Virus record (IMG/VR): IMGVR_UViG_3300020470_002062
Coordinates: 1-33,999 of that record
Reading direction: 5' to 3' (one strand)
Source: a virus
DNA length: 33,999 nt
This document shows, piece by piece, positions 10,362 to 24,166 of this stretch. The translations under genes and the position numbers were made by a program. Below the pieces are notes generated by a model. The model did not search any database. It was not told where the DNA came from and saw nothing but the letters and a program-made list of their open reading frames with translations. The number at the start of each line of letters is the position of its first letter. Position 1 is the first letter of the stretch.

Positions 10362-10775
10362 ATGCTACTTATGACAGTTGCTGCAACCACCTCTGCCAAG
10401 AAGACTCGTTCTACTCGTAAGAGGAGCACAAGCACAACACCACGTAAGGCAAGCACTACTAAGAAGACTGTAACAAAAGCAGCAGTCGTCACTAAATACT
10501 CACAACCTGTTGAGATAAAGAAAGTGACTGAACCGACTCCTGCACCAGTTGTTACGAAAGAAGCTCCAACTCGTCCAGAGAAACCTAATCTCACTTATGT
10601 GGATTATGTTGAAGATGCTAAGGTTCGCTGGGCTATTCATTCTTATGAAACCCGTGAATTGTGGTCTGACATTGTTAAGGTTTATAACAAGTCAGTTCCT
10701 GTTGTTCAGAGTGCTATCACTTATGTGAAGGACTCTTATGATAAAGCATTCAACACTGAGACAGAGAAGAAGTAG
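10362..10775 (+). CDS. Lys/Thr-rich basic small protein
   Basis: 137 residues. The N-terminal half (about 8-50) is a low-complexity Lys/Arg/Thr/Ser tail, SAKKTRSTRKRSTS-type, followed by a Pro-rich linker (PTPAPVV, PTRPEKP) and a C-terminal helical part with WAIHSYETRELWSDIVKVY. The basic tail would suit nucleic-acid binding or packaging with DNA; that is inference. An in-frame ATG three codons later (10371) is an alternative start. The stop is directly followed by a promoter element and a strong terminator, so this gene ends its transcription unit. Confidence 0.6.
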   Translation: MLLMTVAATTSAKKTRSTRKRSTSTTPRKASTTKKTVTKAAVVTKYSQPVEIKKVTEPTPAPVVTKEAPTRPEKPNLTYVDYVEDAKVRWAIHSYETRELWSDIVKVYNKSVPVVQSAITYVKDSYDKAFNTETEKK

Positions 10776-10830
10776 ACAGTCTACGTAGTGTCCACTAAGC
10801 ACCCCAAACGGGGTGCTTTTTTTGTATAAT
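10772..10830 (+). promoter_or_regulatory. Element-dependent promoter A (CAGT...TATAAT) for the 10925 operon
   Basis: Upstream element GTAGACAGTCTACGTAGTGT, with CAGT at 10777, and TATAAT at 10825-10830; the distance is 48 bp. The position where a sigma70 -35 should lie (about 10802) is CCCCAA, inside a terminator stem. The same element and spacing recur at seven other sites in the window. Probably a phage middle-type promoter using an activator. Confidence 0.6.
10798..10823 (+). terminator. Rho-independent terminator (8-bp stem, T7)
   Basis: Perfect stem AGCACCCC / GGGGTGCT with loop AAAC, followed by seven Ts. It ends the 10362 gene's transcript and lies entirely between the upstream element and -10 box of promoter A. 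Nearly identical to the terminator at 23264-23289, which has loop ACAC. Confidence 0.9.
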
Positions 10831-10836
10831 GAATAT

Positions 10837-10906
10837 GTTGAGCAATTACTCAACTGCTGCTAGTCCCTTTTGGTGGTTTCAGACTAGGAGGCGATAGGAA
10901 ACCACC
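10837..10906 (+). other. Structured 5' leader with two hairpins
   Basis: Downstream of promoter A's -10, the predicted transcript start is followed at once by a 6-bp hairpin GTTGAG/CTCAAC (10837-10854). A second, stronger hairpin follows, GGTGGTTTC/GAAACCACC (9 bp, 10872-10880 with 10898-10906), whose 17-base loop carries AGGAGG (10886-10891) and which is followed by a pyrimidine run. The ATG of the first gene is at 10925. It could be an RNA-stability or translation-control leader, an attenuator, or a small RNA. Confidence 0.45.
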
Positions 10907-10924
10907 TTTCTTTTATGAGGTTCA

Positions 10925-11095
10925 ATGGACTATCCTAAAGTCAACAAGCACACCAGAGCACCACGTGACGGTAGATACATTGTCTGTCCTCATTGTGAAG
11001 GTGCTTACAGAGTCTACAACTTTGCTTTCAGTTCATTAACTTGTATGTACTGCAAGCGTGATGTAGACAAATTCAACTTTGGAGTTGTAGCCTAA
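10925..11095 (+). CDS. Zinc-ribbon small protein
   Basis: 56 residues. Two Cys pairs, CPHC near residue 21 and CMYC near residue 42, about 17 residues apart, form a classic four-cysteine zinc ribbon. The rest is basic at the N-terminus (KVNKHTRAPRDGRY). Such ribbons bind nucleic acid or protein partners; a regulatory or adaptor role is likely but unproven. First gene after promoter A and its structured leader; its stop overlaps the next start as TAATG. Confidence 0.75.
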   Translation: MDYPKVNKHTRAPRDGRYIVCPHCEGAYRVYNFAFSSLTCMYCKRDVDKFNFGVVA

Positions 11096-11337
11096 TGACA
11101 CTTGAAGATCAACTACTTGCTGACCTTGCCTATTCTATCAAAGTAATAGGATGTAATGAGGAAGAAGCAAATGAACTCATCCAAGCAGCAGACAATACTG
11201 GATGTAATGTTGAGTATTTCTGTGAGGAGTTCATCTTTGGTGGTCAGGACGTGATGAAGTATCACGATGATGATTACCTTGACATCGAAGGATTCAATGC
11301 TTATCACGGAATCTATTTTGAGGAAGTATCTGAATGA
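11095..11337 (+). CDS. Acidic small protein of unknown function
   Basis: 80 residues, strongly acidic with many Asp/Glu and two Cys. It begins TLEDQLLADLAYSIKVIG and ends FNAYHGIYFEEVSE. Not recognised. Overlaps both neighbours (TAATG at the start, ATGA at the end), so it is embedded in a coupled operon. Confidence 0.65.
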   Translation: MTLEDQLLADLAYSIKVIGCNEEEANELIQAADNTGCNVEYFCEEFIFGGQDVMKYHDDDYLDIEGFNAYHGIYFEEVSE

Positions 11338-11621
11338 AGTTCTACTATCAGCATTATGACAATGCCAAGTATAATACTGTGAATGCACAGGCATTGTACA
11401 AGCAGTATCCACCTACATTTGAAGAGACTGAACGCAAGTGGAAAATGAACTTGTTTAAGTCACGTAAATGTAGGAATGCTAGGAACGTATGGAAGATTCT
11501 TAACTGGAGTCTACCACAAGAAGAATACGAACAGTTACGATATCGTGCTGTTACCTTCCCTGTAGTGTATGATAAGTGGGGATTCAAGCGTAAAGGTGAT
11601 TTTCTTGCTGGTGCAATGTAA
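11334..11621 (+). CDS. Basic small protein of unknown function
   Basis: 95 residues, basic and aromatic-rich: QHYDNAKYNTVNAQALYKQ, then KWKMNLFKSRKCRNARNVWK. Not recognised. It starts in the stop of the acidic gene and its stop shares a base with the next ATG (TAATG). Confidence 0.6.
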   Translation: MKFYYQHYDNAKYNTVNAQALYKQYPPTFEETERKWKMNLFKSRKCRNARNVWKILNWSLPQEEYEQLRYRAVTFPVVYDKWGFKRKGDFLAGAM

Positions 11622-12181
11622 TGGATGGAGTTAAGAACTTATTCTCTGTCCCCATATTTGAAACTCAGGTTGACATCACTCAAGTGGTGTTGCCTGAGTC
11701 TTCTTATGAGTACAATTCAGAGGTTAACTGGTCATTTGGTAGACAAGAATGTCCTGAGCAGACCTATGATTATCTTCATAGTCTGATCTCTCCTTTCTTA
11801 TTGAGCTATGATCCATATATTAATTGTACATTCACAAATATATGGAGGAATAGGTATGAGGAGAAAGACTATCAAGGTTATCACATACACGCACAGAGTC
11901 AATGGAGTTACATAATATATGAGACTGTTGACTCTAAGACAGTATTATACAATCCTGCTTGGATGTTAATACAAAACCATATGCCAGGTACCAAACTGTT
12001 CCCAGTATGCTATAATACTGAACTGAAAGCTGGTAGTATGATAGTTTTCCCATCGTGGATTGCACATCACGTGAAACACGGTAATGTAGGGACAACTATC
12101 AGTGGTAATATACTATTAGAGTATGATACTGCTCATCTACAACTCCACGAACAGTTCCAAGATCAACACCAATTTCACTGA
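11621..12181 (+). CDS. Putative 2-oxoglutarate/Fe(II) oxygenase
   Basis: 186 residues with the shape of the phage 2OG-Fe(II)_Oxy_5 type. FTNIWRNRY (71-79) precedes the first iron-ligand region HIHAQSQWSYIIY (88-100), and the distal His lies in PSWIAHHVKHGN (145-154) after the strand GSMIVFP. In this fold the ligands bind Fe(II) and a distal basic residue binds 2-oxoglutarate; I do not see a clear distal Arg here, so activity is less sure. Substrate unknown; phage members are candidates for protein, nucleotide or sugar hydroxylation. A second homologue lies 170 bases downstream. Confidence 0.7.
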   Translation: MDGVKNLFSVPIFETQVDITQVVLPESSYEYNSEVNWSFGRQECPEQTYDYLHSLISPFLLSYDPYINCTFTNIWRNRYEEKDYQGYHIHAQSQWSYIIYETVDSKTVLYNPAWMLIQNHMPGTKLFPVCYNTELKAGSMIVFPSWIAHHVKHGNVGTTISGNILLEYDTAHLQLHEQFQDQHQFH

Positions 12182-12366
12182 TGTTAAGCACAAAATACAG
12201 ACTAGAACTCACTGATATCTGTTGTCGTATGATTACAGATGATGGAATAGAAGTCACACTTGAAGAGAGAATTTGGATGAACAAACTATGCGAGCATAAT
12301 AATACTGCTAAAGCATTAGTTGAATCTTTACTATGTCCTTATAAGTATGAGCCACGCACCGATTGA
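12181..12366 (+). CDS. Small protein of unknown function between two oxygenases
   Basis: 61 residues, not recognised; contains three Cys and an acidic middle (TDDGIEVTLEERIWMNKLCE). Starts in the stop of the upstream oxygenase and overlaps the start of the next by about 20 bases. Gene order suggests co-expression with both oxygenases. Confidence 0.6.
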   Translation: MLSTKYRLELTDICCRMITDDGIEVTLEERIWMNKLCEHNNTAKALVESLLCPYKYEPRTD

Positions 12367-13042
12367 ACCAAACTTCAGGGTTATAAACATACTGCCTACA
12401 TCTATATTTGAGGCAGAGGTACCACCTGATCTGTATGCTGATCTAGTATCCATAGTCACTAACTGTGACTGGGATGAATCAACATACCTTAAGAACTTAG
12501 AAAAATATCAGAGTGGTGCTGTTAGTACAGATTTACTAAAGCAGTATCGTGATAGTACTGAAGTAGAAGACAGACAACAAGGTATACTACACAGTAACTT
12601 GTTTGATAATTTTCGTGTGTGGTGTGAGAATCAGTTAAACCAACTGTTACCATACATTGTTAAGGAACCATTTGCATCAGATATGGAGATAAATGCTGCG
12701 TGGATCAACAGGTATAGACTAGGTGAGAACCTAGTTGCACACTGTCATCCTTGGGCTGTTGTGTCTGGTACTGTGTTCTTAACTGGCAACAGTGGTGATG
12801 TACAGTTCGTTAAGAGAAATGCATACAGTGATTTGAAGGGACTGGGTATTACAAGATATAGCGATGCATTTACATATCCTGTATCACCTGGTAAGATGGT
12901 GATATTCCCGTCATCATTAAGTCATAGGGTGTTACCCAACGAATCAGACGCAATGCGTTACACTCTAGCATTTAATGCGATGCCCACAACAGTTTATGAT
13001 GGACATACTGTCCAGTTCATAAAGCGTCACAAGCCAACGTGA
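12347..13042 (+). CDS. 2-oxoglutarate/Fe(II) oxygenase (2OG-FeII_Oxy_5 type)
   Basis: 231 residues from the ATG at 12347 (the frame is open to a TTG at 12320, but ATG is preferred). The family signature is clear: INAAWINRYRLGENLVAHCH (115-134) with HCHPWAVVSGTVFL, then SPGKMVIFPSSLSHRVLPNE (180-199) giving the distal His, and R204 in DAMRYTLAFN as the likely 2-oxoglutarate-binding Arg. A soluble enzyme that would hydroxylate an unknown substrate at the expense of 2-oxoglutarate and O2. It is last in the operon from 10925; a new promoter follows immediately, its upstream element lying inside this gene's 3' end. Confidence 0.85.
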   Translation: MSHAPIEPNFRVINILPTSIFEAEVPPDLYADLVSIVTNCDWDESTYLKNLEKYQSGAVSTDLLKQYRDSTEVEDRQQGILHSNLFDNFRVWCENQLNQLLPYIVKEPFASDMEINAAWINRYRLGENLVAHCHPWAVVSGTVFLTGNSGDVQFVKRNAYSDLKGLGITRYSDAFTYPVSPGKMVIFPSSLSHRVLPNESDAMRYTLAFNAMPTTVYDGHTVQFIKRHKPT

Positions 13043-13066
13043 CTTTCCTCTCATTTCCTCTATAAT
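13008..13066 (+). promoter_or_regulatory. Element-dependent promoter G for the 13092 operon
   Basis: Element CAGTTCATAAAGCGTCACAA, with CAGT at 13013 inside the oxygenase 3' end, and TATAAT at 13061-13066: spacing 48 bp. No -35 hexamer at the expected place (CGTGAC). The ATG at 13092 follows an AAAGGA ribosome-binding site. Confidence 0.6.
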
Positions 13067-13091
13067 AACAGAGTAAACACAAAAGGATCTT

Positions 13092-13463
13092 ATGAATTCT
13101 TATCTTGAACCAGTTGCTGCTTCAAAAGAGTGCACAGTTGATGAAATTCTGCCTCTTGAAGTCAGGGTGTATACTTGGGCAGAGACCCTAGTACATTGCC
13201 TTGAGCAACAGTACAAGCATCAGTACCCTAATTCAAGCGATCCTGTAACGTTTAGCATCACCACTGGTAAGAAGTACCTTAAAATTGTACAGAACCGTGG
13301 TGGTGTTCACGCCTTTATAGATAGGAAAACTGGTCAGGTCTACAAACCAGCATCTTGGAAATCACCAGCAAAGCACGTTAGATATGATCTCCGCATCATA
13401 CGTGAACGTGAGTTGTGTTTTGCAAATGCTGATTGGGCTGGCGGTTACTTATACTTAAGGTGA
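13092..13463 (+). CDS. Protein of unknown function
   Basis: 123 residues; start chosen for the AAAGGA site seven bases upstream. The C-terminal part has a beta-rich region, YLKIVQNRGGVHAFIDRKTG then QVYKPASWKSPAKHVRYDLR, resembling small phage proteins that end in a K.ASWK.PA..VRY..R pattern. I cannot name a function. First gene of the operon that leads to the endonuclease-like and methyltransferase genes. Confidence 0.7.
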   Translation: MNSYLEPVAASKECTVDEILPLEVRVYTWAETLVHCLEQQYKHQYPNSSDPVTFSITTGKKYLKIVQNRGGVHAFIDRKTGQVYKPASWKSPAKHVRYDLRIIRERELCFANADWAGGYLYLR

Positions 13464-13469
13464 TTCGTG

Positions 13470-13724
13470 ATGATTGAACTGGGTGATCACATCGTAACTC
13501 CTGACGGTACTTCTGGTACCGTCATTTTTATTAGTCAGGAGTATTTGACCTTGCAAATGGACGGTGAACGTGATCCAGACAATCAGACTGGGTTAAACTT
13601 TACACTCCACGATTACTCTAAGAAATCATTTGCACATCCCTTAATTTACAGGAGCGTATGGAATGAATGTACCATCACAAAGCGAACTAACTCATCTACA
13701 ACTCCAAGCGATGATGAGGGATAA
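13470..13724 (+). CDS. Small SH3/KOW-like beta-barrel protein, function unknown
   Basis: 84 residues from ATG 13470 (an in-frame GTG lies one codon earlier); AAGGTG upstream fits as ribosome-binding site. The N-terminus IELGDHIVTPDGTSGTVIFI looks like a small KOW/SH3-like barrel (G...V..PDG..G.V). The C-terminal 20 residues are Ser/Thr-rich and overlap the next gene. No further function supported. Confidence 0.6.
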   Translation: MIELGDHIVTPDGTSGTVIFISQEYLTLQMDGERDPDNQTGLNFTLHDYSKKSFAHPLIYRSVWNECTITKRTNSSTTPSDDEG

Positions 13725-13845
13725 TAATTTCCCACCTTCAGAGATATTATATCTTGGTCTTGAAGATGGTGAACATTATTATCTAATCAATGGAGAGCAT
13801 CGTGTTCCAGCATCTAAAATAGAAGATCTAGAACGCTGCGATTGA
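13663..13845 (+). CDS. Small protein of unknown function
   Basis: 60 residues; AGGAG about eight bases before the ATG supports the start although it overlaps the upstream gene by 62 bases. Contains ILYLGLEDGEHYYLINGEHR, a small beta-hairpin-like core. Not recognised. Confidence 0.55.
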   Translation: MNVPSQSELTHLQLQAMMRDNNFPPSEILYLGLEDGEHYYLINGEHRVPASKIEDLERCD

Positions 13846-13869
13846 CCCTACAACCCCTCTGAAATCATT

Positions 13870-14391
13870 ATGACTAAGTATTCCCCTGAACAAGCAAAAG
13901 AACTCTTCAAGAAGCATTTTGAAGGGTTATATGAGGTCTGTGAAGACCAAGGATGGGGTGATCCATTCTCTTATGCTAGGTCACGTGAAATTCATATGGC
14001 TATTGAATTAGGTCACGAGGTATCTGAAGACTATTCAGGTTCAGATGCTACTGATGACAAGGGAGAAGTAGAGTACAAGAGTACAATAGGTGATAAGATC
14101 TCTGCAACATACAATGGTATCTCTGTTAAGGATACTTGGGAGGAGCAGGATGAGTATTTGCGCAGTGAGAAACTACTTAAGTACCATAAACATTACTATG
14201 CACGCTATGAAGGAGCGCAGATTGTAGAATTATGGAGCTTGGGTGGTGATACTGTGTACAATTACCTTGCACCTAGGTTAGAGAAGAAGTTCAAGAAGCT
14301 TAAAGCAAGAGCTAAGCAACCCGCAGATCCACGTTTAGGTGATAATATATGCGCAGGATACATTAAAAAGCACGCATATAAGATCAGATGA
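13870..14391 (+). CDS. Putative restriction endonuclease-like protein (PD-(D/E)XK-like)
   Basis: 173 residues, not matched to a named enzyme. The features that matter are SGSDATDDKGEVEYKST (56-72), which contains acidic residues (D59, D62, D63) followed by E68-Y69-K70, the spacing and form of a PD-(D/E)XK nuclease core, then ISATYNGISV and a WEEQDEYL helix. The C-terminus is basic (KKFKKLKARAKQ) and ends in PADPRLGDNICAGYIKK. Its stop overlaps the start of a DNA methyltransferase (ATGA), the usual order of a type II restriction-modification pair. Size suits a small type II endonuclease. Inference rests on one motif plus context; an alternative is a methyltransferase partner or DNA-binding protein. 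Confidence 0.5.
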   Translation: MTKYSPEQAKELFKKHFEGLYEVCEDQGWGDPFSYARSREIHMAIELGHEVSEDYSGSDATDDKGEVEYKSTIGDKISATYNGISVKDTWEEQDEYLRSEKLLKYHKHYYARYEGAQIVELWSLGGDTVYNYLAPRLEKKFKKLKARAKQPADPRLGDNICAGYIKKHAYKIR

Positions 14392-15338
14392 GAGATATTA
14401 TACTATATGGTGACTGTCGTGACACTCTCAAGACTATAAGTGAACCAGTTAGAATGTGTGTCACATCTCCACCATACTACGGTCTACGTGACTATGGTGG
14501 AGAAGATAGTCAAATTGGTCAGGAACAAACACCTGACGAATACATACAAGCATTGGTAGAAGTATTCAGGAGTGTACGTGATGTGCTCACAGATGATGGA
14601 ACTTGTTGGGTTAATATTGGCGATAGTTACTATAATTACAGACCTGGAAGAGGACAAGGACTGGTTAAACAAACAGTCTCAAATAGTAAGCAAGACTTAC
14701 CAGATGTGTGTCCTCGCAGAGGAAATAGACTCGACGGAATCAAAGAAAAAGATTTGATAGGCATACCTTGGATGCTTGCATTTGCACTACGTGCTGATGG
14801 ATGGTATCTAAGGCAGGATATCATATGGCATAAACCTAATCCAATGCCTGAGAGTGTACGTGATCGATGTACTAAGTCTCACGAGTACATATTTTTATTG
14901 AGCAAGTCTCGCAAGTATTATTATAACAATGAAGCTATTAAAGAACCTGCTAAAGACTGGGGTACGAGAGATAGGACAAACGGTAAGTATCACAATAAAG
15001 GGACTGGACTACAGCCACACTCTGGTCTTTCAAAGTCTTATCCCACGAAGAATAAGCGTAGTGTCTGGTCAGTCACTAACAAACCGTACAAGGGAGCACA
15101 TTTTGCTACATATCCACCTGACTTGATTGAACCCTGTATTAAAGCAGGATCAGAGCGAGGTGACATAGTATTAGATCCCTTTATGGGATCAGGTACCACT
15201 GCAATGGTTGCCAAGTCATTAGGCAGGGATTACATAGGGTGCGAACTGCACGAGAACTATGGTAGTCTCATTCAGCAACGCATTCAGTCTCAGTGTGCCA
15301 GTGCACAAAGTGTCACACGCTTTCTCCACGGTGGGTAA
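14388..15338 (+). CDS. Site-specific DNA amino-methyltransferase (beta class)
   Basis: 316 residues. Catalytic motif IV is TSPPYYGLRDYGG (26-38) near the N-terminus and the S-adenosylmethionine motif I is LDPFMGSGTTAMVA (262-275) followed by GRDYIGCE near the C-terminus: the IV-before-I order of beta-class enzymes. SPPY is typical of N4-cytosine but also occurs in N6-adenine enzymes, so the modified base is open. The region between (about 90-240) holds IPWMLAFALRADGWYLRQDI and a likely target-recognition segment. It would methylate phage or host DNA. Overlaps the endonuclease-like gene upstream; the 3' end contains the element of promoter H. Confidence 0.9.
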   Translation: MRDIILYGDCRDTLKTISEPVRMCVTSPPYYGLRDYGGEDSQIGQEQTPDEYIQALVEVFRSVRDVLTDDGTCWVNIGDSYYNYRPGRGQGLVKQTVSNSKQDLPDVCPRRGNRLDGIKEKDLIGIPWMLAFALRADGWYLRQDIIWHKPNPMPESVRDRCTKSHEYIFLLSKSRKYYYNNEAIKEPAKDWGTRDRTNGKYHNKGTGLQPHSGLSKSYPTKNKRSVWSVTNKPYKGAHFATYPPDLIEPCIKAGSERGDIVLDPFMGSGTTAMVAKSLGRDYIGCELHENYGSLIQQRIQSQCASAQSVTRFLHGG

Positions 15339-15351
15339 TATGTCCTATAAT
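15293..15351 (+). promoter_or_regulatory. Element-dependent promoter H for the 15378 gene
   Basis: Element CAGTGCACAAAGTGTCACAC, with CAGT at 15299 in the methyltransferase 3' end, and TATAAT at 15346-15351: spacing 47 bp, one less than the usual 48. No -35 hexamer at the expected place (TCTCCA). Confidence 0.6.
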
Positions 15352-15377
15352 AGTCAGGTACCAAACAAAGATTGACA

Positions 15378-15641
15378 ATGCGTCTCTCAACCACTGACGG
15401 CTCTGCGACTCTTGACTACTATCCTGTTCGTATGCCTCTAGGTGACATCTCTCACAAGTATCTTCTCAAGATCATCAACTTTGGTCGTAATGGACAACGC
15501 AAGGAGTTTGTTACAAAAGATGACTTCAAGACAGAAGTAACTCAGGCAACTGAAAACTTCGGTTATAATGTCATCGACTTCAATATTGAACCACAGTTAG
15601 GTAATCCACTTGTTTCGGGAACACCATACGCATTTGCATAA
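15378..15641 (+). CDS. Small protein of unknown function
   Basis: 87 residues from ATG 15378 (an in-frame TTG two codons earlier is less likely). Sequence includes TTDGSATLDYYPVRMPLGDI, a helix-rich middle FVTKDDFKTEVTQATENFGY, and a Gly/Pro C-terminus. It is alone between promoter H and a terminator, so it forms a monocistronic unit. Not recognised. Confidence 0.7.
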   Translation: MRLSTTDGSATLDYYPVRMPLGDISHKYLLKIINFGRNGQRKEFVTKDDFKTEVTQATENFGYNVIDFNIEPQLGNPLVSGTPYAFA

Positions 15642-15682: not shown

Positions 15683-15686
15683 AACT

Positions 15687-16645: not shown

Positions 16646-16646
16646 A

Positions 16647-17759: not shown

Positions 17760-18284
17760 ATGCGACTCGGTATTATGTGTTCTGGTAACGGAACAAACTT
17801 TGAGAACATTGTTAGAACTTGTACAAAAGATGAAGTTGTGTTGATGATACACAACAAAAAGAAATGTGGTGCTGCTAAGAGAGCAGACAAATTAGGTATA
17901 CCACATTGTCATATCAGTCACGAAGATGAAGACCAGATCATCCAATTAATGCAAGCGTGGAGAGTAGAGCTCATCATACTTGCAGGATGGATGAGAATAG
18001 TATCACCTAAGCTCATAAATGCATTCTCTGAACGCATAATTAATGTACATCCGTCATTACTACCAAAGTATAAGGGATTACACGCAGTAGAACAGGCATT
18101 AGAGAGTGGAGATACGGAAACTGGAGCTAGCGTGCACTTTGTTGATGAAGGACTAGACACTGGTCAGGTCATCATACAACAATCAGTACCTATTGAACCT
18201 GATGATACGGTTGAATCATTGACTCGTAGAATACAATTGATGGAGTATTCTATTTTACCTGTTGCAATTAATGAACTAAGATAA
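17760..18284 (+). CDS. purN: Phosphoribosylglycinamide formyltransferase
   Basis: 174 residues. Transfers a formyl group from 10-formyltetrahydrofolate to GAR in step three of purine synthesis, in the cytoplasm. The phosphate-binding start is SGNGTNFENI (8-17); the catalytic triad Asn95, His97 and Asp133 is visible in INVHPSLLPKYKG and VDEGLDTGQVI. It lacks the C-terminal tail of the bacterial enzyme (212 residues in E. coli), a compact phage form. Followed by purC with a shared base (TAATG) and purM. Phage purine genes are thought to supply nucleotides for genome replication when host supply limits. Confidence 0.95.
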   Translation: MRLGIMCSGNGTNFENIVRTCTKDEVVLMIHNKKKCGAAKRADKLGIPHCHISHEDEDQIIQLMQAWRVELIILAGWMRIVSPKLINAFSERIINVHPSLLPKYKGLHAVEQALESGDTETGASVHFVDEGLDTGQVIIQQSVPIEPDDTVESLTRRIQLMEYSILPVAINELR

Positions 18285-18997
18285 TGGAACATTTAATCAC
18301 ACCAATTAATACTGGCAAGGTTAAGACTGTCTTCGATGTTGATGGAGATGCTCAGAGAGTATACATCCGATATGAAGATAGAATCACAGCATTTGAGGGT
18401 GAAAGAATTGATTACCCTGAGAATAAGGGATCAATTTGTTGTCTCATCTCAGCATTATTATTTGAAATGTGTGAGAAGAATGGTATTAAGACTCATTTTA
18501 TTGAGCTACCATCACTCAACACAATGTTGTGTCGTAAGTTGACCATCATACCATTAGAAGTGATTGTACGTAACATTGCTGCTGGTAGTATTGTCAAGAA
18601 CACTAACATCAATGAAGGACAATTAATAAACCCACCGATCGTAGAATACTTCCTTAAAGATGATGCTAAGGGTGATCCATTACTAACAATGGATAGAGTA
18701 CGATTGATGGGTATTGATCCTGAGCCATTAAAAGAGCGTGCACTTGCAGTTAACTATCAATTACAATCATTGTTCACACTAATGGGCATTGATTTAGTTG
18801 ATTTTAAACTAGAGTTTGGCTTTGATGCTCACGGTGATCTATTTTTAGGTGATGAACTATCACCAGATAATATGAGATTGTGGAAGAAGGATACTAAAGA
18901 AAGATTTGACAAAGATTTGTTCAGAAAGGATGAGGGTGATGTTGTTGAAGCATATCGGAAAATATTAATGCAACTACGTCAATTTGTACCACAATGA
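18284..18997 (+). CDS. purC: Phosphoribosylaminoimidazole-succinocarboxamide synthase
   Basis: 237 residues, full family length. Joins aspartate to CAIR with ATP to give SAICAR. Seen: TGKVKTVFDVDGD (10-22) as the ATP-binding start, ITAFEG, EVIVRNIAAGSIVK around residue 95, and FLGDELSPDNMRLWKKD near 185. All key family segments are present. It lies between purN and purM with one- and four-base overlaps, so the three are translationally coupled. Confidence 0.96.
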   Translation: MEHLITPINTGKVKTVFDVDGDAQRVYIRYEDRITAFEGERIDYPENKGSICCLISALLFEMCEKNGIKTHFIELPSLNTMLCRKLTIIPLEVIVRNIAAGSIVKNTNINEGQLINPPIVEYFLKDDAKGDPLLTMDRVRLMGIDPEPLKERALAVNYQLQSLFTLMGIDLVDFKLEFGFDAHGDLFLGDELSPDNMRLWKKDTKERFDKDLFRKDEGDVVEAYRKILMQLRQFVPQ

Positions 18998-19878
18998 AGT
19001 ATCAGGTAGATATAGATGCAGGTAATGCATTTGTAGAGCGATTAAAAGAGAAAGCACCTAGTATTGGTGGATTTGGTGGTGCATTTAGAATACCTAGTGG
19101 GTATGAGAAACCTGTCTTAGTATCTGGTGCTGATGGTGTTGGTACTAAGATTAATATTGCAAGAGTATTCAATGATTACACAACCATAGGACAAGATCTT
19201 GTGGCTATGTGTGTCAATGATGTCATCTGCACTGGTGCTACACCATTATATTTCCTAGATTATATCTCTACCAAGAAAATAGATGCTAGTGTAGCAGATA
19301 TTATGGTGGGCATCCTTAGAGGATGTGAGATAGCAGAGATGGAGTTACTAGGAGGAGAAACAGCAGAGCATTGGAGGCAGAGTGAGTATGATCTTGCTGG
19401 TTTCTGCACTGGTATTGTAGAAGAGAATGAAATACTAGATGGAAGACTGATCAAACCAGGTGATAAGATCATTGGTCTACCTAGTAGTGGTCTTCATAGT
19501 AATGGTTATACTTTGATCAATGATATGTTGTGGAGGCAGAAGATATATTACAGAGATCTGCCTGAGTTATTAACACCAACAACAATCTATTGGCCACAAG
19601 TTAAAGAATTAATGAATGAGATACCTATACTTGGTATGGCTCATATTACTGGTGGTGGTATACCTGAAAACTTACCACGTTGTTTACCAAGAGGATTAAA
19701 TGCTGATGTAGAATATACTTGGGAAAGACCAGAGATATTCAATAAGATACAACAAGCAGGAGATATTGAAGAGAATGAAATGAGAAGAGTATTTAATCTT
19801 GGTATTGGATTTTGTTTAGTTGTGCCTAATGAAATCAATGATTTAGATGATAATCAAATTGGTGTTGTGACATTATAA
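18994..19878 (+). CDS. purM: Phosphoribosylformylglycinamidine cyclo-ligase (AIR synthetase)
   Basis: 294 residues against about 345 in bacteria. Closes the imidazole ring of FGAM with ATP to give AIR. Family segments: DIDAGNAFVERLK (6-18), VLVSGADGVGTKI (42-54), DLVAMCVNDVICTGA (68-82), LLGGETAEHW (119-128), GLPSSGLHSNGYTLI, ITGGGIPENLPR, FNLGIGFCLVVP. The shortening is spread over several loops, with catalytic regions kept. Final gene of the pur cassette, followed by a hairpin terminator. Confidence 0.96.
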   Translation: MKYQVDIDAGNAFVERLKEKAPSIGGFGGAFRIPSGYEKPVLVSGADGVGTKINIARVFNDYTTIGQDLVAMCVNDVICTGATPLYFLDYISTKKIDASVADIMVGILRGCEIAEMELLGGETAEHWRQSEYDLAGFCTGIVEENEILDGRLIKPGDKIIGLPSSGLHSNGYTLINDMLWRQKIYYRDLPELLTPTTIYWPQVKELMNEIPILGMAHITGGGIPENLPRCLPRGLNADVEYTWERPEIFNKIQQAGDIEENEMRRVFNLGIGFCLVVPNEINDLDDNQIGVVTL

Positions 19879-19905
19879 GACCCCTGCTACGATGTAACAG
19901 GGGTC
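19879..19905 (+). terminator. Hairpin after purM (no T run)
   Basis: GACCCCTG / CAGGGGTC, 8 bp, with a further TAC/GTA pairing around a GAT loop. No run of Ts follows, so it may be a weak or factor-assisted terminator, or an mRNA 3' stabiliser. It begins right after the purM stop. Confidence 0.6.
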
Positions 19906-19941
19906 AGTGGGCGGTATTTAAACTGGACTATTCTGTTTTGT

Positions 19942-20112: not shown

Positions 20113-20193
20113 TAACTTTAAACCTCACTAAGTGAACTACATAACAAAATGATTTGGGTACATCTTGTTGTTCCCTAATTCTACCACTATTTA

Positions 20194-20258
20194 TGTCAGA
20201 AAACACTGACAGAGACTAAGTACTTAACCTCTTGTAAAGGGGTATTTATACCGAGGTT
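20194..20258. promoter_or_regulatory. Cluster of inverted repeats upstream of the early-type promoter
   Basis: TGTCAG-AAAACA-CTGACA (20194-20211) and a nested repeat: AACCTC (20226-20231) pairing with GAGGTT (20253-20258), enclosing the near-palindrome GGTATTTATACC (20241-20252). The outer arm overlaps the -35 box at 20257, the position of a repressor operator. No regulator gene is identified. Confidence 0.4.
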
Positions 20259-20285
20259 TACACATCCCACTACCTATGGTATAAT
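20257..20285 (+). promoter_or_regulatory. Sigma70-type promoter for the small membrane-protein operon
   Basis: TTTACA (20257-20262), 17-bp spacer, TATAAT (20280-20285). Five of six bases at -35, all six at -10, optimal spacing. A host-recognised early promoter; the first ATG is at 20312. Confidence 0.75.
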
Positions 20286-20311
20286 ACACAAGTGAATCAA
20301 TCCTTTATTCA

Positions 20312-20398
20312 ATGCACCTGATCCTAACGCTACTTTGTATTGGTCTCATTGCACTTGCACTAATTTATTCAATCATCCAACATTACAACCCGCATTGA
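20312..20398 (+). CDS. Tiny membrane peptide
   Basis: 28 residues, almost entirely one hydrophobic helix (HLILTLLCIGLIALALIYSI) ending QHYNPH. First gene downstream of a sigma70-type promoter, two bases before the next gene's ATG. It would sit in the host inner or thylakoid membrane. Function unknown. Confidence 0.65.
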   Translation: MHLILTLLCIGLIALALIYSIIQHYNPH

Positions 20399-20400
20399 TT

Positions 20401-20658
20401 ATGAGTTTTAGTAATAGAAAGTTAACAAAACATCAGATTAAAACACGATGGTATTATTGGTTTTGGTCTATTTGTGCGGTGGCGGTCGTCGGCGGTCAGG
20501 TCTATGTTGGTTCTGGCTACAGACAAATGTCCAAATCATTTGATAGAATCATAGATACAATTGTCGTCACATTGGAATTAGAAACAAATGGATACCCTTT
20601 CAGGTATGCACCACGTGAAATGCCATTGCACGATGATCATCCAATGGTAATTAAATGA
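20401..20658 (+). CDS. Single-span membrane protein of unknown function
   Basis: 85 residues from ATG 20401 (the frame extends upstream only to a TTG inside the previous gene). A basic N-terminus (NRKLTKHQIKTRW) precedes a membrane helix at about 17-36 (WYYWFWSICAVAVVGGQVYV), then GSGYRQMSKSFDR and a soluble tail. The positive-inside rule puts the N-terminus in the cytoplasm. ATGA overlap with the next gene. Function unknown. Confidence 0.75.
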   Translation: MSFSNRKLTKHQIKTRWYYWFWSICAVAVVGGQVYVGSGYRQMSKSFDRIIDTIVVTLELETNGYPFRYAPREMPLHDDHPMVIK

Positions 20659-20741
20659 TTACTACACTGTTTCCATTCTTATTTGCCATCGCATTAGTAT
20701 CAGCGATGCACTACACTTGGCCAATTAAATATAGACGCTAA
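20655..20741 (+). CDS. Tiny membrane peptide
   Basis: 28 residues: ITTLFPFLFAIALVSAMHY then a polar basic tail IKYRR. One hydrophobic helix. Overlaps neighbours at both ends (ATGA, TAATG). Function unknown. Confidence 0.65.
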   Translation: MITTLFPFLFAIALVSAMHYTWPIKYRR

Positions 20742-21016
20742 TGACTACACCAACAGAACGTTTACACAATGATATGCGTAAACAAACAGAATCATACGAG
20801 CAATTACTAGCAAGGTTTCGTAAACGCACCGATCAACTAAGCAAAGAGCAAGGTGAACTCGATGAAGCATACGAAAAATGGTTAAAACTTGATAGAGAAT
20901 TGAATCGCCTTGAAGGATCAATTCAAGCAATTGAATACTGTGCCTATGGCAAATTGCCTGGTGACGGTAATCACGATGGAATGAAAGATCATACACCTAA
21001 AGCACACAATATGTAA
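20741..21016 (+). CDS. Coiled-coil protein of unknown function
   Basis: 91 residues. Residues 5-62 form a long charged helix with heptad-like spacing (EQLLARFRKRTDQLSKEQGE, EAYEKWLKLDRELNRLEGSI), then a polar tail. It lies among membrane peptides, so it might be a soluble partner of them. Confidence 0.7.
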   Translation: MTTPTERLHNDMRKQTESYEQLLARFRKRTDQLSKEQGELDEAYEKWLKLDRELNRLEGSIQAIEYCAYGKLPGDGNHDGMKDHTPKAHNM

Positions 21017-21017
21017 A

Positions 21018-21137
21018 ATGTGGGATTCAATTATACATTACAGAATCGCAACTCCTATCGTAGAGTTTGCAACCCTCGCCATTGGTTTAATATGGCTATG
21101 GGTATTACTAGGATACATTGGAGGCAATCCTAAATGA
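21018..21137 (+). CDS. Small membrane protein
   Basis: 39 residues with one hydrophobic helix (IVEFATLAIGLIWLWVLLGY) after a polar start WDSIIHYRIATP. One base after the previous stop; ATGA overlap with the next gene. Function unknown. Confidence 0.65.
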   Translation: MWDSIIHYRIATPIVEFATLAIGLIWLWVLLGYIGGNPK

Positions 21138-21475
21138 CAATTACATACAGAGAGTTGATGACCAAGTTATCTACTATGACACTCGATGAAATGAATGAAC
21201 CAGTAGATATGGAATGGTTAACAACAACAGTAGATACACCAATTACTTCTAACAGTGATACATTACGTGAATACTTCTCACCTAATGAATGGAAAGCAAT
21301 TAAGGATGCAGTATCAGCAGAAGCACTATGTGCTCACGAAGATGATACTGAACCCTTCAATTCTGTTGCTAGAAAGATCAACAAACTCATAGACATACCT
21401 AATCAAATGGGTAACTATGGGCTGAATGATGTAGAAGTCTATGATACATTAAATGACCCAATGGGAGGCAATTAG
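21134..21475 (+). CDS. Acidic protein of unknown function
   Basis: 113 residues, acidic: TYRELMTKLSTMTLDEMNEP, NEWKAIKDAVSAEALCAHED, KINKLIDIPNQMGNYG. No recognised domain; last gene of the operon, followed by a 334-base non-coding region. Confidence 0.65.
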   Translation: MTITYRELMTKLSTMTLDEMNEPVDMEWLTTTVDTPITSNSDTLREYFSPNEWKAIKDAVSAEALCAHEDDTEPFNSVARKINKLIDIPNQMGNYGLNDVEVYDTLNDPMGGN

Positions 21476-21809
21476 TAGACATTACGCGGAATGGCACACT
21501 CATTGGTATCACTATGAGGTTTTCCACAACCCTGTGGAAAACTATTGACATACCTGTGGAAAAACTCTCTTTTTTTAAATGTTAAATAAATCAGAGTAGT
21601 CTGTTCTATTCATCTCTTAAGTGTGAGACTTTTAGGGATCTAAGCCCGAAGTCTATCGAAAAGTCAAGCAAAAAGCAAGAAAGTTAAAATATTGAAATAT
21701 TGAGAAAGTCAAAATACTTAAAAAGTCACTTTTTTAAGATTTAACATTTAAAAGTATTGACAGATCCTTTAAATAGTGGTATTATAACAGTATCACAAAG
21801 AATTAAACA
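21476..21809. other. Non-coding region with origin-like and promoter signals
   Basis: No supported gene. Contains GTTTTCCACA-ACCC-TGTGGAAAAC (21519-21542), a perfect 10-bp inverted repeat of DnaA-box-like TTTTCCACA, and a third copy at 21555-21563. Then a T-rich tract, a hairpin AGACTT/AAGTCT (21626-21654), A-rich direct repeats of GAAAGTYAAAATA type at about 21659, 21680, 21705 and 21721, an inverted repeat CTTAAAAAGT/ACTTTTTTAAG (21717-21738), and a sigma70 promoter. Consistent with a replication-origin or early control region; inference. Confidence 0.45.
21757..21785 (+). promoter_or_regulatory. Near-consensus sigma70 promoter
   Basis: TTGACA (21757-21762), 17 bp, TATTAT (21780-21785). 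All six bases at -35 and optimal spacing. Serves the gene at 21810; likely an early promoter for host RNA polymerase. Confidence 0.8.
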
Positions 21810-22271
21810 ATGGCTGAGACTTATTCAGAGTTACCTTCCAGTGCAATTGAGTTTTTAGAGTTAGATTGGGATACAAATACTGTTAAAATAGTATATAAAT
21901 CTAATTTAAATAAACAATATCATTATAAATGTGAAGACTTAGATGAATTTCAGTCAGCATTTATGACATTGTGTGGAAAACTCGAAGCAGAGCAAGATCG
22001 AGACGATGACGATCAAGTGGTCGAAGACATAACTGACACAATCGAAAGGGAGGATGCCTCAATCGGCAAATTCATCAACGAGAGACGACAGTTGGGCAAT
22101 TTGAAAATTGACACAATCCTAACACAGCACGAGGATATGTTGGATAAGGGATGGGACGGTTTCGTAGGTAGCACAGTGCCAGAGGGAGCACTGGTCAACG
22201 TGGATATGGCAGGGGATATTGTAACAAATGTTGATCAAGAAGAAAAAACTCAGCTGCCCGTGGACAGTTGA
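21810..22271 (+). CDS. KTSC-like domain protein with divergent C-terminal half
   Basis: 153 residues. Residues 9-52 (SSAIEFLELDWDTNTVKIVY through EDLDEFQSAFM) resemble the KTSC domain (S..I....YD...L.V.F...Y.Y..V....), thought to bind RNA or proteins. The C-terminal 90 residues are acidic and not recognised. DNA for the first half is very A+T-rich; from about 21970 codon use shifts to the GC-richer style of the downstream module, suggesting a chimeric gene. The 3' end carries the element of promoter B. A TGTGGAAAA site lies at 21972. Confidence 0.7.
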   Translation: MAETYSELPSSAIEFLELDWDTNTVKIVYKSNLNKQYHYKCEDLDEFQSAFMTLCGKLEAEQDRDDDDQVVEDITDTIEREDASIGKFINERRQLGNLKIDTILTQHEDMLDKGWDGFVGSTVPEGALVNVDMAGDIVTNVDQEEKTQLPVDS

Positions 22272-22318
22272 CAAAGTGGCACAAGGTTTGATGCAGGGGT
22301 GGGGTGAGCGTGTATAAT
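22260..22318 (+). promoter_or_regulatory. Element-dependent promoter B for the 22325 gene
   Basis: Element CAGTTGACAAAGTGGCACAA, with CAGT at 22265, and TATAAT at 22313-22318: spacing 48 bp. No -35 hexamer at the expected place (GATGCA). The best match to the consensus element. The ATG is at 22325, so the leader is very short or absent. Confidence 0.65.
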
Positions 22319-22324
22319 TACAGT

Positions 22325-22483
22325 ATGAGAAATCTTCAAATCACCGAAGCAGAAGAGACCGCCTTGGTCAACGCTCTGCTTTTCATCCAAGACCTCGGCG
22401 TGCCACCTCACCTTGAAGAGGATGAAGCGTTCGACTCCCTCTGGGATAAGGTCACGGATCCTGAACCCGCCGCATACTTCTAA
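22325..22483 (+). CDS. Small protein of unknown function
   Basis: 52 residues: RNLQITEAEETALVNALLFI then VPPHLEEDEAFDSLWDKV. Acidic and helical. First gene after promoter B; stop overlaps the next ATG (TAATG). GC-richer codons than the purine and fibre genes. Confidence 0.65.
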   Translation: MRNLQITEAEETALVNALLFIQDLGVPPHLEEDEAFDSLWDKVTDPEPAAYF

Positions 22484-22647
22484 TGTACGGCGACCTCTAC
22501 CCACCTCATTTCTACACCGATTTTGAACGAAACTCATTTCACCGAATTCTTCCCTCAACTCCAACAGAAGGGGTACACCCTGAGGGAGTGCGTCCACGGT
22601 CTAGGGTCAACGAAACCGACTCAGGAGATGCCAAGCATTTACACTGA
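22483..22647 (+). CDS. Small reading frame, possibly the 5' part of a frameshifted gene
   Basis: 54 residues starting YGDLYPPHFYTDFERN, a plausible protein start directly coupled to the upstream stop. After about residue 18 the sequence becomes Pro/Arg-rich and less protein-like, while the overlapping frame (22523-22714) looks better. Either this is a separate gene, or the real product joins this start to the other frame by a frameshift. Confidence 0.4.
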   Translation: MYGDLYPPHFYTDFERNSFHRILPSTPTEGVHPEGVRPRSRVNETDSGDAKHLH

Positions 22648-22714
22648 GCGATATCCTGACCGCACCTATGATGATTACGTGGCAGACATCCACGATTATT
22701 TGAACGGTCTCTAA
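22523..22714 (+). CDS. Small protein or frameshift partner (no ATG)
   Basis: 63 residues from a TTG. Sequence is convincing: THFTEFFPQLQQKGYTLREC, then YPDRTYDDYVADIHDYLNGL, and its stop lies in the loop of the terminator. The frame is the same as the 22325 gene and is open after that gene's TAA, so readthrough is formally possible; a +1 shift from the 22483 frame is the other option. Confidence 0.5.
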   Translation: MNETHFTEFFPQLQQKGYTLRECVHGLGSTKPTQEMPSIYTERYPDRTYDDYVADIHDYLNGL

Positions 22715-22729
22715 GACCGTTCTTTTTTT
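22702..22729 (+). terminator. Rho-independent terminator (9-bp stem, T7)
   Basis: Stem GAACGGTCT / AGACCGTTC with loop CTA and seven Ts. The stop codon of the 22523 frame falls in the loop. Confidence 0.9.
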
Positions 22730-22770
22730 ATGCATACGTATGTACTAGTCGGGCGGCTGGATTTTATTAG

Positions 22771-22849
22771 GTGGACAGTTCACAAACTGGTCTTTTTTAC
22801 AACAATCCTGTTACATTTGATTTCCCTACCCCAGGTGGGAATGTATAAT
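22771..22849 (+). promoter_or_regulatory. Element-dependent promoter C, extended spacing
   Basis: Element CAGTTCACAAACTGGT, with CAGT at 22776, and TATAAT at 22844-22849: spacing 68 bp, 20 more than the usual 48 and so close to two extra helical turns. No clear -35. Serves the 22874 gene. Confidence 0.5.
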
Positions 22850-22873
22850 AGGATCAGTTCACACGAATTCCTT

Positions 22874-23230
22874 ATGCGCAAAGTTGATCGCAAAATGCTA
22901 GACGCAATTGAGTCAGGTCGCAACTTCTCAGGTGGCAACCGACTAGTCAAGCATAACGACGACGGCATCACTCAGGTCTATTTCCACGGGCACCGCATCG
23001 CGGAGATTGACAAGGGTCAAGCAATCTGGATCAACAACTGCGGTTATTGGACAGTGACCACCAAGCAAATTCTAAATGAGATTTGCTTACGCTTTGCAAA
23101 CTCCTGGTTGTATCAGCGTAAATTTGACTGGTTCGTTGAAAATCGTACCACCAAGCAGGTCACTGAGTATGTGGACGGATGGTTCAAACTTCCATTTGAA
23201 GAATACTACTCCGACGCATACTACGCCTAG
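22874..23230 (+). CDS. Conserved-looking phage protein of unknown function
   Basis: 118 residues; ATG 22874 chosen because TATAAT lies 25 bases upstream (the frame is open further upstream through the promoter). Begins RKVDRKMLDAIESGRNFSGG, with VYFHGHRIAEIDKG, TKQILNEICLRFA and FDWFVENRTTKQ, resembling a small family of marine phage proteins with a K.FNWFV-type segment. No enzyme motif visible. Confidence 0.7.
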   Translation: MRKVDRKMLDAIESGRNFSGGNRLVKHNDDGITQVYFHGHRIAEIDKGQAIWINNCGYWTVTTKQILNEICLRFANSWLYQRKFDWFVENRTTKQVTEYVDGWFKLPFEEYYSDAYYA

Positions 23231-23237
23231 AGCTAGC

Positions 23238-23296
23238 ACGACCAGTTTGAAAACTGTCACAAGAGCACCCCACACGGGGTGCTTTTTTTGTATAAT
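23238..23296 (+). promoter_or_regulatory. Element-dependent promoter D for the 23321 gene
   Basis: Element CAGTTTGAAAACTGTCACAA (CAGT at 23243), here a strong dyad CAGTTT/AAACTG, and TATAAT at 23291-23296: spacing 48 bp. A terminator occupies the interval. Confidence 0.65.
23264..23289 (+). terminator. Rho-independent terminator (8-bp stem, T7)
   Basis: AGCACCCC / GGGGTGCT with loop ACAC and seven Ts, near-identical to 10798-10823, and likewise followed at once by GTATAAT. Confidence 0.9.
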
Positions 23297-23320
23297 TAAA
23301 GAGTACACAAGCGAGGCATT

Positions 23321-23461
23321 ATGAGCACACTTCATCACGAGGCAATCATTGAGGGAATTTATGAAGACCTCGTAGAAGAACTCAGAACCGACTTGCTCTT
23401 TATGGCACAGGACCAAATCGACGCAATCGTTCAGGAACGCTTCGAGGATCTCTGCCAGTGA
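23321..23461 (+). CDS. Small acidic protein of unknown function
   Basis: 46 residues, helical and acidic: STLHHEAIIEGIYEDLVEEL then MAQDQIDAIVQERFEDL. CGAGG lies eight bases before the ATG. Stop overlaps the GTG start of the next gene (GTGA). Confidence 0.65.
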   Translation: MSTLHHEAIIEGIYEDLVEELRTDLLFMAQDQIDAIVQERFEDLCQ

Positions 23462-23637
23462 TCGAGACCTACGAGTTCAAATGTACTATCGAGGTAGGAC
23501 CAGAGGATGATGTCCAATGGTCACACCTGCCTGAAGAAATTCAGGCATACCTCGACAGTGCATACTATGAGAACCAATCCAAGGTTCGCAAGTGGACAGT
23601 CAACAAACTGCCACAACCAATGCCCACTCGCTACTAA
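23458..23637 (+). CDS. Small protein of unknown function (GTG start)
   Basis: 59 residues from the overlapping GTG: IETYEFKCTIEVGPEDDVQW, then a helix and VRKWTVNKLPQPMPTRY. The last part is encoded by the element of promoter E, so its sequence is shared between protein and control site. Not recognised. Confidence 0.6.
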   Translation: MIETYEFKCTIEVGPEDDVQWSHLPEEIQAYLDSAYYENQSKVRKWTVNKLPQPMPTRY

Positions 23638-23650
23638 AATCGTGTATATT
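23592..23650 (+). promoter_or_regulatory. Element-dependent promoter E for the 23677 operon
   Basis: Element CAGTCAACAAACTGCCACAA (CAGT at 23597) inside the 3' end of a gene and TATATT at 23645-23650: spacing 48 bp. No -35 hexamer. Confidence 0.6.
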
Positions 23651-23676
23651 AAGAGAGTCCAAAACAGGAGACCATC

Positions 23677-23799
23677 TTGAACGAATTTGACACCGACGCT
23701 CTCACCGATTTAATTGATGAGAGTCTAAGGGATGAAGAACTGGTCACCCTTGACTGTGATGACTCAGTAATTGAAGCACTGATGCAAGAGGTCTTATGA
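23677..23799 (+). CDS. Small acidic protein of unknown function (TTG start)
   Basis: 40 residues: NEFDTDALTDLIDESLRDEE, then CDDSVIEALMQEVL. The TTG start is supported by CAGGAG six bases upstream and by promoter E; no ATG fits. ATGA overlap with the next gene. Confidence 0.6.
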   Translation: MNEFDTDALTDLIDESLRDEELVTLDCDDSVIEALMQEVL

Positions 23800-23867
23800 T
23801 CAGACTTGCAAACCGACTTCTCAAACCATTCAACCGCAAACTCGTAATTTTCAAGACCTATGCCTGA
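23796..23867 (+). CDS. Tiny basic peptide
   Basis: 23 residues: IRLANRLLKPFNRKLVIFKT. An amphipathic basic helix. Supported mainly by exact coupling: it starts in the previous stop (ATGA) and ends eight bases into the next gene. Could be a coupling peptide only. Confidence 0.4.
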   Translation: MIRLANRLLKPFNRKLVIFKTYA

Positions 23868-24108
23868 AACTCTCACCCGTCCCCAGTCAACCGAAATGTA
23901 CAACGGTTGGACAAACTACGAAACCTGGAACGCTGCTCTTTGGATTCAAAACGACTCATCAAATTTTGAAGTCGCTTTTGGTTGCACCTCATATGCACAG
24001 TTCAAAGACAGAATCGGGGAACTAAGAACAGGGGACGGGGTAAGATGGGATGACCCAAAGATCGACACTGAAGAACTAGACGAGATGCTAGACGAATTCC
24101 ACGACTAG
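23860..24108 (+). CDS. Small phage protein with YNGWTNYETWN motif
   Basis: 82 residues. MYNGWTNYETWNAALWIQND (13-32) is a motif conserved in many phage and plasmid small proteins of unknown function. C-terminus acidic (DTEELDEMLDEFHD). Expressed from promoter E with two tiny upstream genes; the element of promoter F starts at its stop. Confidence 0.75.
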   Translation: MPETLTRPQSTEMYNGWTNYETWNAALWIQNDSSNFEVAFGCTSYAQFKDRIGELRTGDGVRWDDPKIDTEELDEMLDEFHD

Positions 24109-24166
24109 CAGACAGTCTACAAAGTGTCCACCATAGCCCCCACTCTCACGGGTGGGGGTTTATAAT
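24108..24166 (+). promoter_or_regulatory. Element-dependent promoter F for the 24173 operon
   Basis: Element CAGTCTACAAAGTGTCCAC (CAGT at 24113), TATAAT at 24161-24166: spacing 48 bp. A terminator hairpin fills the gap. The first 20 bases closely match promoter A. Confidence 0.65.
24137..24161 (+). terminator. Hairpin terminator with short T tail
   Basis: CCCCCAC / GTGGGGG, 7-bp GC-only-rich stem with loop TCTCACGG and three Ts running into TATAAT. Strong stem, weak T run. Confidence 0.65.

Follow-up and report, generated by a model that had tools for sequence, protein, structure and literature searches.

INTRODUCTION

The middle promoters of phage T4 (MotA box, AsiA) join TATAAT and a poor -35 region to a second element that serves an activator, the MotA box, which lies near -30. 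For T4-like cyanophages a different scheme is reportedly described in the abstract of Doron et al. 2016: a novel regulatory element is said to control the early genes of Syn9 and host-like promoters its middle genes, with similar results for P-TIM40 and with elements conserved among T4-like cyanophages. In this study we analyse a stretch of 33,999 bases from a virus record (IMG/VR record IMGVR_UViG_3300020470_002062; the whole stretch is called the window below) in which nine -10 boxes are preceded by a shared 24-bp inverted repeat. We consider it likely that this element marks an activator-dependent promoter class found throughout the T4-like cyanophage clade, most likely serving early (hyperplastic-region) genes, at which a dimer bound to the dyad would recruit the host polymerase.

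The window promoters resemble those of the T4 middle class in their TATAAT, their poor -35 region and the presence of a second element, but this element is a 24-bp dyad near -53.5 and not a box at about -30. Promoters of the CRP type (class I and class II activators) offer a parallel, as they combine a weak sigma-70 promoter with a dimer site placed at constant spacing ahead of it; the cyanophage element, however, reads TGTG-N16-CACA and neither TGTGA-N6-TCACA, as at CRP sites, nor GTA-N8-TAC, as at NtcA sites. By inspection, neither the NtcA box (GTA-N8-TAC) nor the Pho box (CTTA-N7-CTTA), as given in PMC3037559, is contained in the position weight matrix (PWM) of the element family. The promoter-early-stem-loops (PeSLs) of T4-like phages (Arbiol 2010 and Comeau 2014, as cited in PMC4503421) join a terminator hairpin to an early promoter, to which the predicted hairpins of the presumably early cyanophage promoters may correspond; the cyanophage hairpin, however, lies between the putative activator site and the -10 box, and in only part of the promoters (3 of 9 in the window, 37 of 278 in the family). 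According to PMC2984593, motA and asiA are missing from cyanomyoviruses, and for P-SSM4 and Syn9 a putative middle promoter has been proposed; marine T4-like cyanophages are also described, in PMC5780444, as having no T4-like middle promoters.

RESULTS

Nine promoters with a common upstream element

The initial annotation of the window had listed eight transcription units in which TATAAT or TATATT is preceded by a common 18-mer. All eight sites are present. CAGT starts at 10777, 13013, 15299, 22265, 22776, 23243, 23597 and 24113, and its distances to TATAAT or TATATT are, in the same order, 48, 48, 47, 48, 68, 48, 48 and 48 bp, so that six lie at 48, one at 47 and one at 68. Mismatches to the 18-mer range from 0 (22265) to 5 (10777). 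A ninth site that had been overlooked starts at 10290 with two mismatches, 48 bp before the TATAAT at 10338. The features, all on the + strand, are as follows (ORF, open reading frame; distances are from element to -10).

10285-10308, +: 24-bp dyad element, ninth site, with CACT at 10290 in the place of CAGT; PWM score 25.4
10338-10343, +: -10 box TATAAT at 48, ahead of ORF 10362-10775
10772-10795, +: 24-bp dyad element, the poorest of the eight by the 18-mer (5 mismatches); PWM score 12.2
10797-10818, +: terminator-like hairpin and T-run between element and -10
10825-10830, +: -10 box TATAAT at 48; ORF 10925-11095
13008-13031, +: 24-bp dyad element, within ORF 12320-13042; PWM score 17.7
13061-13066, +: -10 box TATAAT at 48; ORF 13092-13463 (phrog_818)
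15294-15317, +: 24-bp dyad element with full TGTG...CACA, within ORF 14388-15338; PWM score 31.7
15346-15351, +: -10 box TATAAT at 47; ORF 15378-15641 (phrog_500)
22260-22283, +: 24-bp dyad element with the top PWM score of the window, 33.1
22313-22318, +: -10 box TATAAT at 48; ATG 22325 exactly 12 nucleotides (nt) on, predicted leaderless, phrog_15219
22771-22794, +: 24-bp dyad element of the 68-bp outlier; PWM score 11.9
22844-22849, +: -10 box TATAAT at 68; ORF 22874-23230
23238-23261, +: 24-bp dyad element; PWM score 21.8
23261-23286, +: terminator-like hairpin and T-run between element and -10
23291-23296, +: -10 box TATAAT at 48; ORF from 23321 (46 aa, phrog_14136/phrog_9309)
23592-23615, +: 24-bp dyad element; PWM score 25.4
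23645-23650, +: -10 box TATATT at 48; 40-codon ORF from TTG 23677
24108-24131, +: 24-bp dyad element; PWM score 18.2
24142-24159, +: hairpin with short T-run between element and -10
24161-24166, +: -10 box TATAAT at 48; ATG 24173 exactly 12 nt on, predicted leaderless

The arrangement is far more frequent than in shuffled sequence. With the fifth base of the 18-mer left open and TATA(A/T)T required at 47-49, a limit of 4 mismatches gave 8 sites on the + strand and none on the - strand; in 500 dinucleotide shuffles of the window the two strands together yielded 0.052 on average. These 8 are the nine window sites minus 22776, whose spacing is 68. Looser cut-offs gave 8 (+) and 2 (-) sites against 0.41 at 5 mismatches, and 8 and 5 against 1.84 at 6. 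As the - strand matches appear only at these looser cut-offs, the signal sits in good matches on one strand. A simple search for sigma-70 promoter-like matches found 43 in the region compared with 43.3 in shuffles, and a simple sigma-70 -35 rule was satisfied by one of the nine window -10 boxes (13061, GTGACT). Three elements (10290, 13013 and 15299) lie inside upstream ORFs, as had been noted for several cases, and the others at or just after a stop codon. Within the ORF starting at 22730, the match to phrog_554 begins at residue 49, which corresponds to position 22874.

Anatomy of the element

A PWM built from 278 distinct IMG/VR sites, for each of which TATAAT was required at 47-50, has the consensus TGTG(A/C)CAGTTnACAAA(G/C)TG(G/T)CACA, a 24-bp inverted repeat. 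Compared with its own reverse complement, the PWM gives r = 0.80 at one centre, whereas values for 20 alternative centres ranged from -0.31 to 0.27. This agrees with the dyad symmetry that the initial annotation had taken to fit a dimeric activator, although the dyad is longer than described there. The arm on the promoter side is the better conserved. Measured from the first T of TATAAT, the centre lies 41.5 bp upstream, which places it at about -53.5 on the assumption that the -10 box occupies -12 to -7.

Spacing is narrowly distributed: 48 in 177 of these sites, 49 in 74, 47 in 18 and 50 in 9. When spacing was left open, TATAAT stood at 48 or 49 in 219 of 321 elements (at most 2 mismatches) and at every other offset from 10 to 119 in 0-4, a peak that arises partly by construction since the loci had been selected with TATAAT at 46-50. 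Eight isolate genomes together with the window showed a peak at 47-49 (14, 52 and 20) versus 0-4 per other offset (PWM threshold 14); the isolate genomes were not chosen by the spacing pattern, except P-SSM7, which had contributed to the PWM through one locus (L014).

The family PWM also holds a weak -35-like patch, (G/C)T(T/C)(G/C)AA(T/A), at 25-31 from CAGT. The absence of a -35 box, claimed initially, is borne out in the window, where the patch is mostly unrecognisable, but does not extend to the family. The patch keeps the same distance to the element whether the -10 box is at 48 or at 49, so element and -35 region look like one rigid block that is followed by a flexible spacer of 16-17 bp.

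Among 271 sites, the triplet found 12 nt downstream of the beginning of the -10 box reads ATA in 141, GTA in 37 and ATG in 29; at 24 of the 271 this is also precisely where the first ORF with 30 or more codons begins. These counts suggest a conserved (A/G)TA start signal and a leaderless subset of genes, in which the window genes at 22325 and 24173 are predicted to belong. In the window, (A/G)T stands at the predicted start of eight of the nine promoters, the exception being 22844. The spacer between element and -10 can hold a further feature: a run of at least five T near the -10 box occurs in 41 of the 278 family sites, 37 of these with a hairpin of minimum free energy <= -6 kcal/mol, and hairpins are found at three window sites (10777, 23243 and 24113, the last with a short T-run).

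Distribution among phages and prokaryotes

The exact pattern together with TATAAT occurs in at least 119 IMG/VR stretches, and a second, dyad-based pattern in at least 120, giving 98 new loci. Every locus listed, 119 of 119 in the first set (E<1e-10) and 98 of 98 in the second (E<1e-5), has a match to one or more proteins from eight cyanomyoviruses, although for L325 this is a single weak match; three or more proteins of the same phage are matched by 113 of 119 and by 94 of 98. We also searched 15 whole records, allowing up to 3 mismatches and using the reversed pattern as control. The element is present in all 11 T4-like cyanophage records (P-SSM7, Syn9, P-SSM2, P-SSM4, S-PM2, P-HM2, P-TIM40, S-SKS1, the freshwater phage S-CRM01, Syn1 and S-RSM4), with 8-30 matches each versus 0-7 for the reversed pattern. 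No match was found in the records of T4, Microcystis phage Ma-LMM01 and podovirus P-SSP7. Pelagimyophage HTVC008M has one weak match; with up to 7 matches per record in the control, single matches mean little. At 18 bits the PWM finds 4-34 matches in eight cyanophages and none in T4 and HTVC008M, the mean in resampled genomes being 0-0.2, and at 14 bits HTVC008M has 1 compared with 0-1.8 in resampled genomes (order-1 resampling, five per genome; both strands of one dyad may count twice). A -10-like box at 46-50 accompanies 7 sites in Syn9 and 16 entries in P-TIM40, among them two that repeat a dyad of the list on its opposite strand.

When 84,980 prokaryote genomes were scanned for the exact pattern, two matches were returned, L132 and L133, neither titled cyanobacterial. 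The scan was strict, as the Syn9 sites inspected would fail it, and the negative result for hosts is therefore not complete. One of the two (L133, PAPD01000060.1) is a contig filed in a gammaproteobacterial metagenome-assembled genome (MAG); it is matched by 24 cyanophage query proteins, taken from eight proteomes and so representing fewer genes, and looks like a cyanophage contig. The other (L132, WLXB01000081.1), a contig of an alphaproteobacterial MAG, carries one exact element-promoter with a GTA start. It has no match to cyanophage proteins or phage records, and four of seven ORFs scanned have PHROG matches; about one chance match was expected in the scan (a rough estimate from base counts), and its element-promoter may be due to chance or belong to another phage.

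As for the window itself, its positions 28600-31000 match 151 phage records, nearly all of cyanophages, at the gp25/gp6 baseplate genes, and its dam gene has 79% identity to that of Prochlorococcus phage P-SSM7. We identify the window as a fragment of a T4-like cyanophage. The nine promoters appear as a coherent regulon of such a phage, without a MotA-type arrangement, in line with the initial proposal.

Gene context

We examined which genes follow the element within 350 bp in eight cyanophage genomes, with gene classes of our own labelling ('replication' includes gp55 and MazG, 'metabolic' includes PhoH and Hsp20). The element is found near 3 of 120 replication genes (gp32 twice, gp61 once), 1 of 38 metabolic genes and none of 96 late genes, counts in which operon-internal genes would show no promoter of their own. 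Its sites precede small genes of the hyperplastic region and a few conserved operons. The position is conserved before the helicase gene gp75 (6 of 6 genomes with a match), cobT (5 of 8), cobS (4 of 8), gp90 (5 of 5, the site in Syn1 being 320 nt away) and gp183 (5 of 8, where the start was chosen with the promoter in view, so that the Syn9 count is not independent). In Syn9 (DQ149023, 148747-148823) the annotated gp183 start, 148771, lies upstream of the predicted -10 box (148795), and the true start may be 148822, as the orthologues suggest.

From about 10 to 25 kb the window contains small genes without known function, two 2OG-Fe(II) oxygenases, a methyltransferase and homologues of purN, purC and purM, followed by gp25/gp6 (the ORF annotation covers positions from 9885 onward, except ORF 20335-20658). 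The purN, purC and purM homologues stand in a row at 17760-19878 inside the small-gene region. A PWM scan found no element of at least 8 bits between 15312 and 22265, and the pur genes therefore have none close upstream.

DISCUSSION

A probable promoter class for early genes

Activation is consistent with the fixed spacing, the symmetry, the weak -35 region and the location of the element away from the core promoter. We infer from sequence that a dimeric DNA-binding protein would sit on the 24-bp inverted repeat centred near -53.5 and touch sigma region 4 or the alpha C-terminal domain. Through this contact, host polymerase of the sigma-70 type would be able to open a promoter that has TATAAT but a weak or absent -35 hexamer, with initiation predicted at the A or G that lies 12 nt beyond the first T of the -10 box. 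At about one site in seven or eight a predicted terminator hairpin fills the spacer, so that one transcript could end where the next begins.

The window element is most likely the early-gene element of Doron et al. 2016; the nine window promoters would then be new instances of a cyanophage early-promoter class that is most likely published. The two agree in their conservation across the T4-like cyanophages tested and in their position before hyperplastic-region genes, and Syn9 and P-TIM40, the phages studied there, both carry the window-type element 46-50 bp before -10-like boxes. That study may already describe the 24-bp dyad, the -35-like patch, the start signal, the leaderless genes and the spacer terminators. 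The element itself was not found in print in the open-licence literature searched, which does not show that no paper prints it. The same literature did not yield the 24-bp dyad with its rigid tie to the -35 patch, the (A/G)TA start with leaderless genes or the spacer terminators, which may be in Doron et al. 2016.

T4-like cyanophages do without the T4 tools for switching transcription (PMC2984593), although their takeover of the cell follows a set sequence. The element, a sharply defined site that is likely to mark the earliest genes switched on, offers a direct handle on the protein responsible and might serve as a search key for the early takeover genes of uncultivated phages.

Several observations weigh against the preferred explanation. 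The element stands before gp32 in two genomes and gp61 in one, and in Syn9 cobT and cobS lie directly before gp45 and gp44. The excess over the reversed pattern is modest in Syn1 (16/7), P-TIM40 (10/6), S-SKS1 (10/5) and S-RSM4 (8/2), and only two of the seven Syn9 promoters have TATAAT, three having TATTCT. An activator of early genes must be present on entry, i.e. it must be a host or a virion protein. Among cyanophage-specific Syn9 ORFs no helix-turn-helix (HTH) family was found in the 8 of 21 that were scanned (Pfam, PHROGs), which weakens the case for a phage factor. Finally, earlier work, as reported in PMC2984593, found sigma-70-like motifs before the early genes of S-PM2 and Syn9, though not S-RSM4.

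Alternative explanations

Quite possibly, the element is bound by a transcription factor that the host already contains and that the phage hijacks on entry, an explanation that overlaps with the one we prefer and differs only in the binder. Early promoters must work before phage proteins exist, the limited search just mentioned gave no cyanophage-wide HTH protein, and the element is alike in phages of Prochlorococcus, of marine Synechococcus and of one freshwater Synechococcus. Against this, the scan of 84,980 genomes gave no match titled cyanobacterial, strict as its pattern was; the element is absent from P-SSP7, a Prochlorococcus phage of 45 kb and the only podovirus tested; and 217 of the 217 IMG/VR loci examined match cyanomyovirus proteins, including the one with its single weak match. 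Where tested, the occurrence of the element tracks the phage clade, and for this reason we lean somewhat towards a phage factor, either carried in the virion or made at once.

In the search for such a regulator, 68 Syn9 ORFs were conserved in at least six of seven other cyanophages, and 21 of these had no match in HTVC008M or T4 (BLAST); a search by conservation would miss a fast-changing regulator. The 13 ORFs beyond the 8 scanned comprise by annotation a helicase, a methyltransferase, MazG, two high-light proteins, PsbA, PsbD, thymidylate synthase and opposite-strand ORFs. Two further proteins were considered: gp230 matches phrog_385, which is labelled transcriptional regulator (a label only), and gp136, HTH-like by eye, has no match in the element-rich S-CRM01.

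More tentatively, and with some doubt about the scheme as a whole, it might be possible that T4-like cyanophages own a private promoter class. In such a class a phage-supplied activator, for example a virion-borne one, would replace the -35 from the -53.5 dyad and fix an (A/G)T(A/G) start; where this triplet doubles as the start codon, takeover genes would be leaderless. The dyad might also shift one helical turn outwards where a consensus -35 is present, as at one conserved locus.

The initial annotation had instead proposed a middle-class regulon, with an early phage protein as activator replacing MotA and firing after the early and before the late genes. A weak -35 with an upstream activator site does resemble an activator-dependent second wave, and the sites at gp32 and gp61 point the same way. 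However, the element is scarce near replication genes (3/120) and metabolic genes (1/38) and precedes hyperplastic-region genes instead, and the window pur genes have no element close upstream. In the abstract of Doron et al. 2016 the novel element is reportedly assigned to early genes. In cultured cyanomyoviruses the genes of nucleic-acid metabolism belong to the middle class of expression and capsid genes to the late class (PMC7238727); together with this timing, the rarity of the element near replication and metabolic genes argues against 'middle' and for 'early'. Although the lack of motA and asiA and the putative middle promoter suggested for P-SSM4 and Syn9 (PMC2984593) would suit a middle class, we regard it as unlikely.

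Still less probable is a repressor operator or a recombination or packaging site in place of an activator site. The element is an inverted repeat in many copies, partly beside terminators at gene junctions, as such a site might be, but the rigid spacing of 48-49 bp to TATAAT, the weak -35 hexamers and the conserved +1 region speak against it, and at -53.5 it leaves the core promoter uncovered. A sigma-54 type promoter, with the right arm reading CTGGCAC, is very improbable: (A)CTGGCAC resembles the -24 element of the consensus TGGCAC-N5-TTGC, but the partner GC is unconserved in the PWM (offsets 19-24, <0.2 bit), TATAAT is present instead, and cyanobacteria are not known to have sigma-54.

Variant spacings and a tandem locus

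The 68-bp case had been read as the element moved by two helical turns; this depends on one outlier and found no good support as a phased variant. Elements with PWM scores of at least 18 but without TATAAT at 45-51 had it at 56-60 in 8 cases, at 71-72 in 3 and at 61-70 in none, and offsets 67-69 in a loose search (4 mismatches) accounted for 8 of 1026, a slight excess at most. The sites at 59-60 with consensus TTGACA in L024, L028 and L105 count as one, because they belong to one conserved locus.

At this locus (L024:528-947, +; L028:6051-6470, +; L105:6726-7145, -) two elements stand in tandem, each with a TTGAC(A/T) -35 and TATAAT, the first element 59-60 bp from its TATAAT and the second 49. 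Between the first -10 box and the second element lies a conserved stretch of about 125 nt, which has no tRNA or Rfam match; could it be a small RNA or an origin region? An exact 24-mer of this stretch is present in 8 IMG/VR stretches, and similar DNA occurs in Synechococcus phages S-SSM7 and S-SSM6a.

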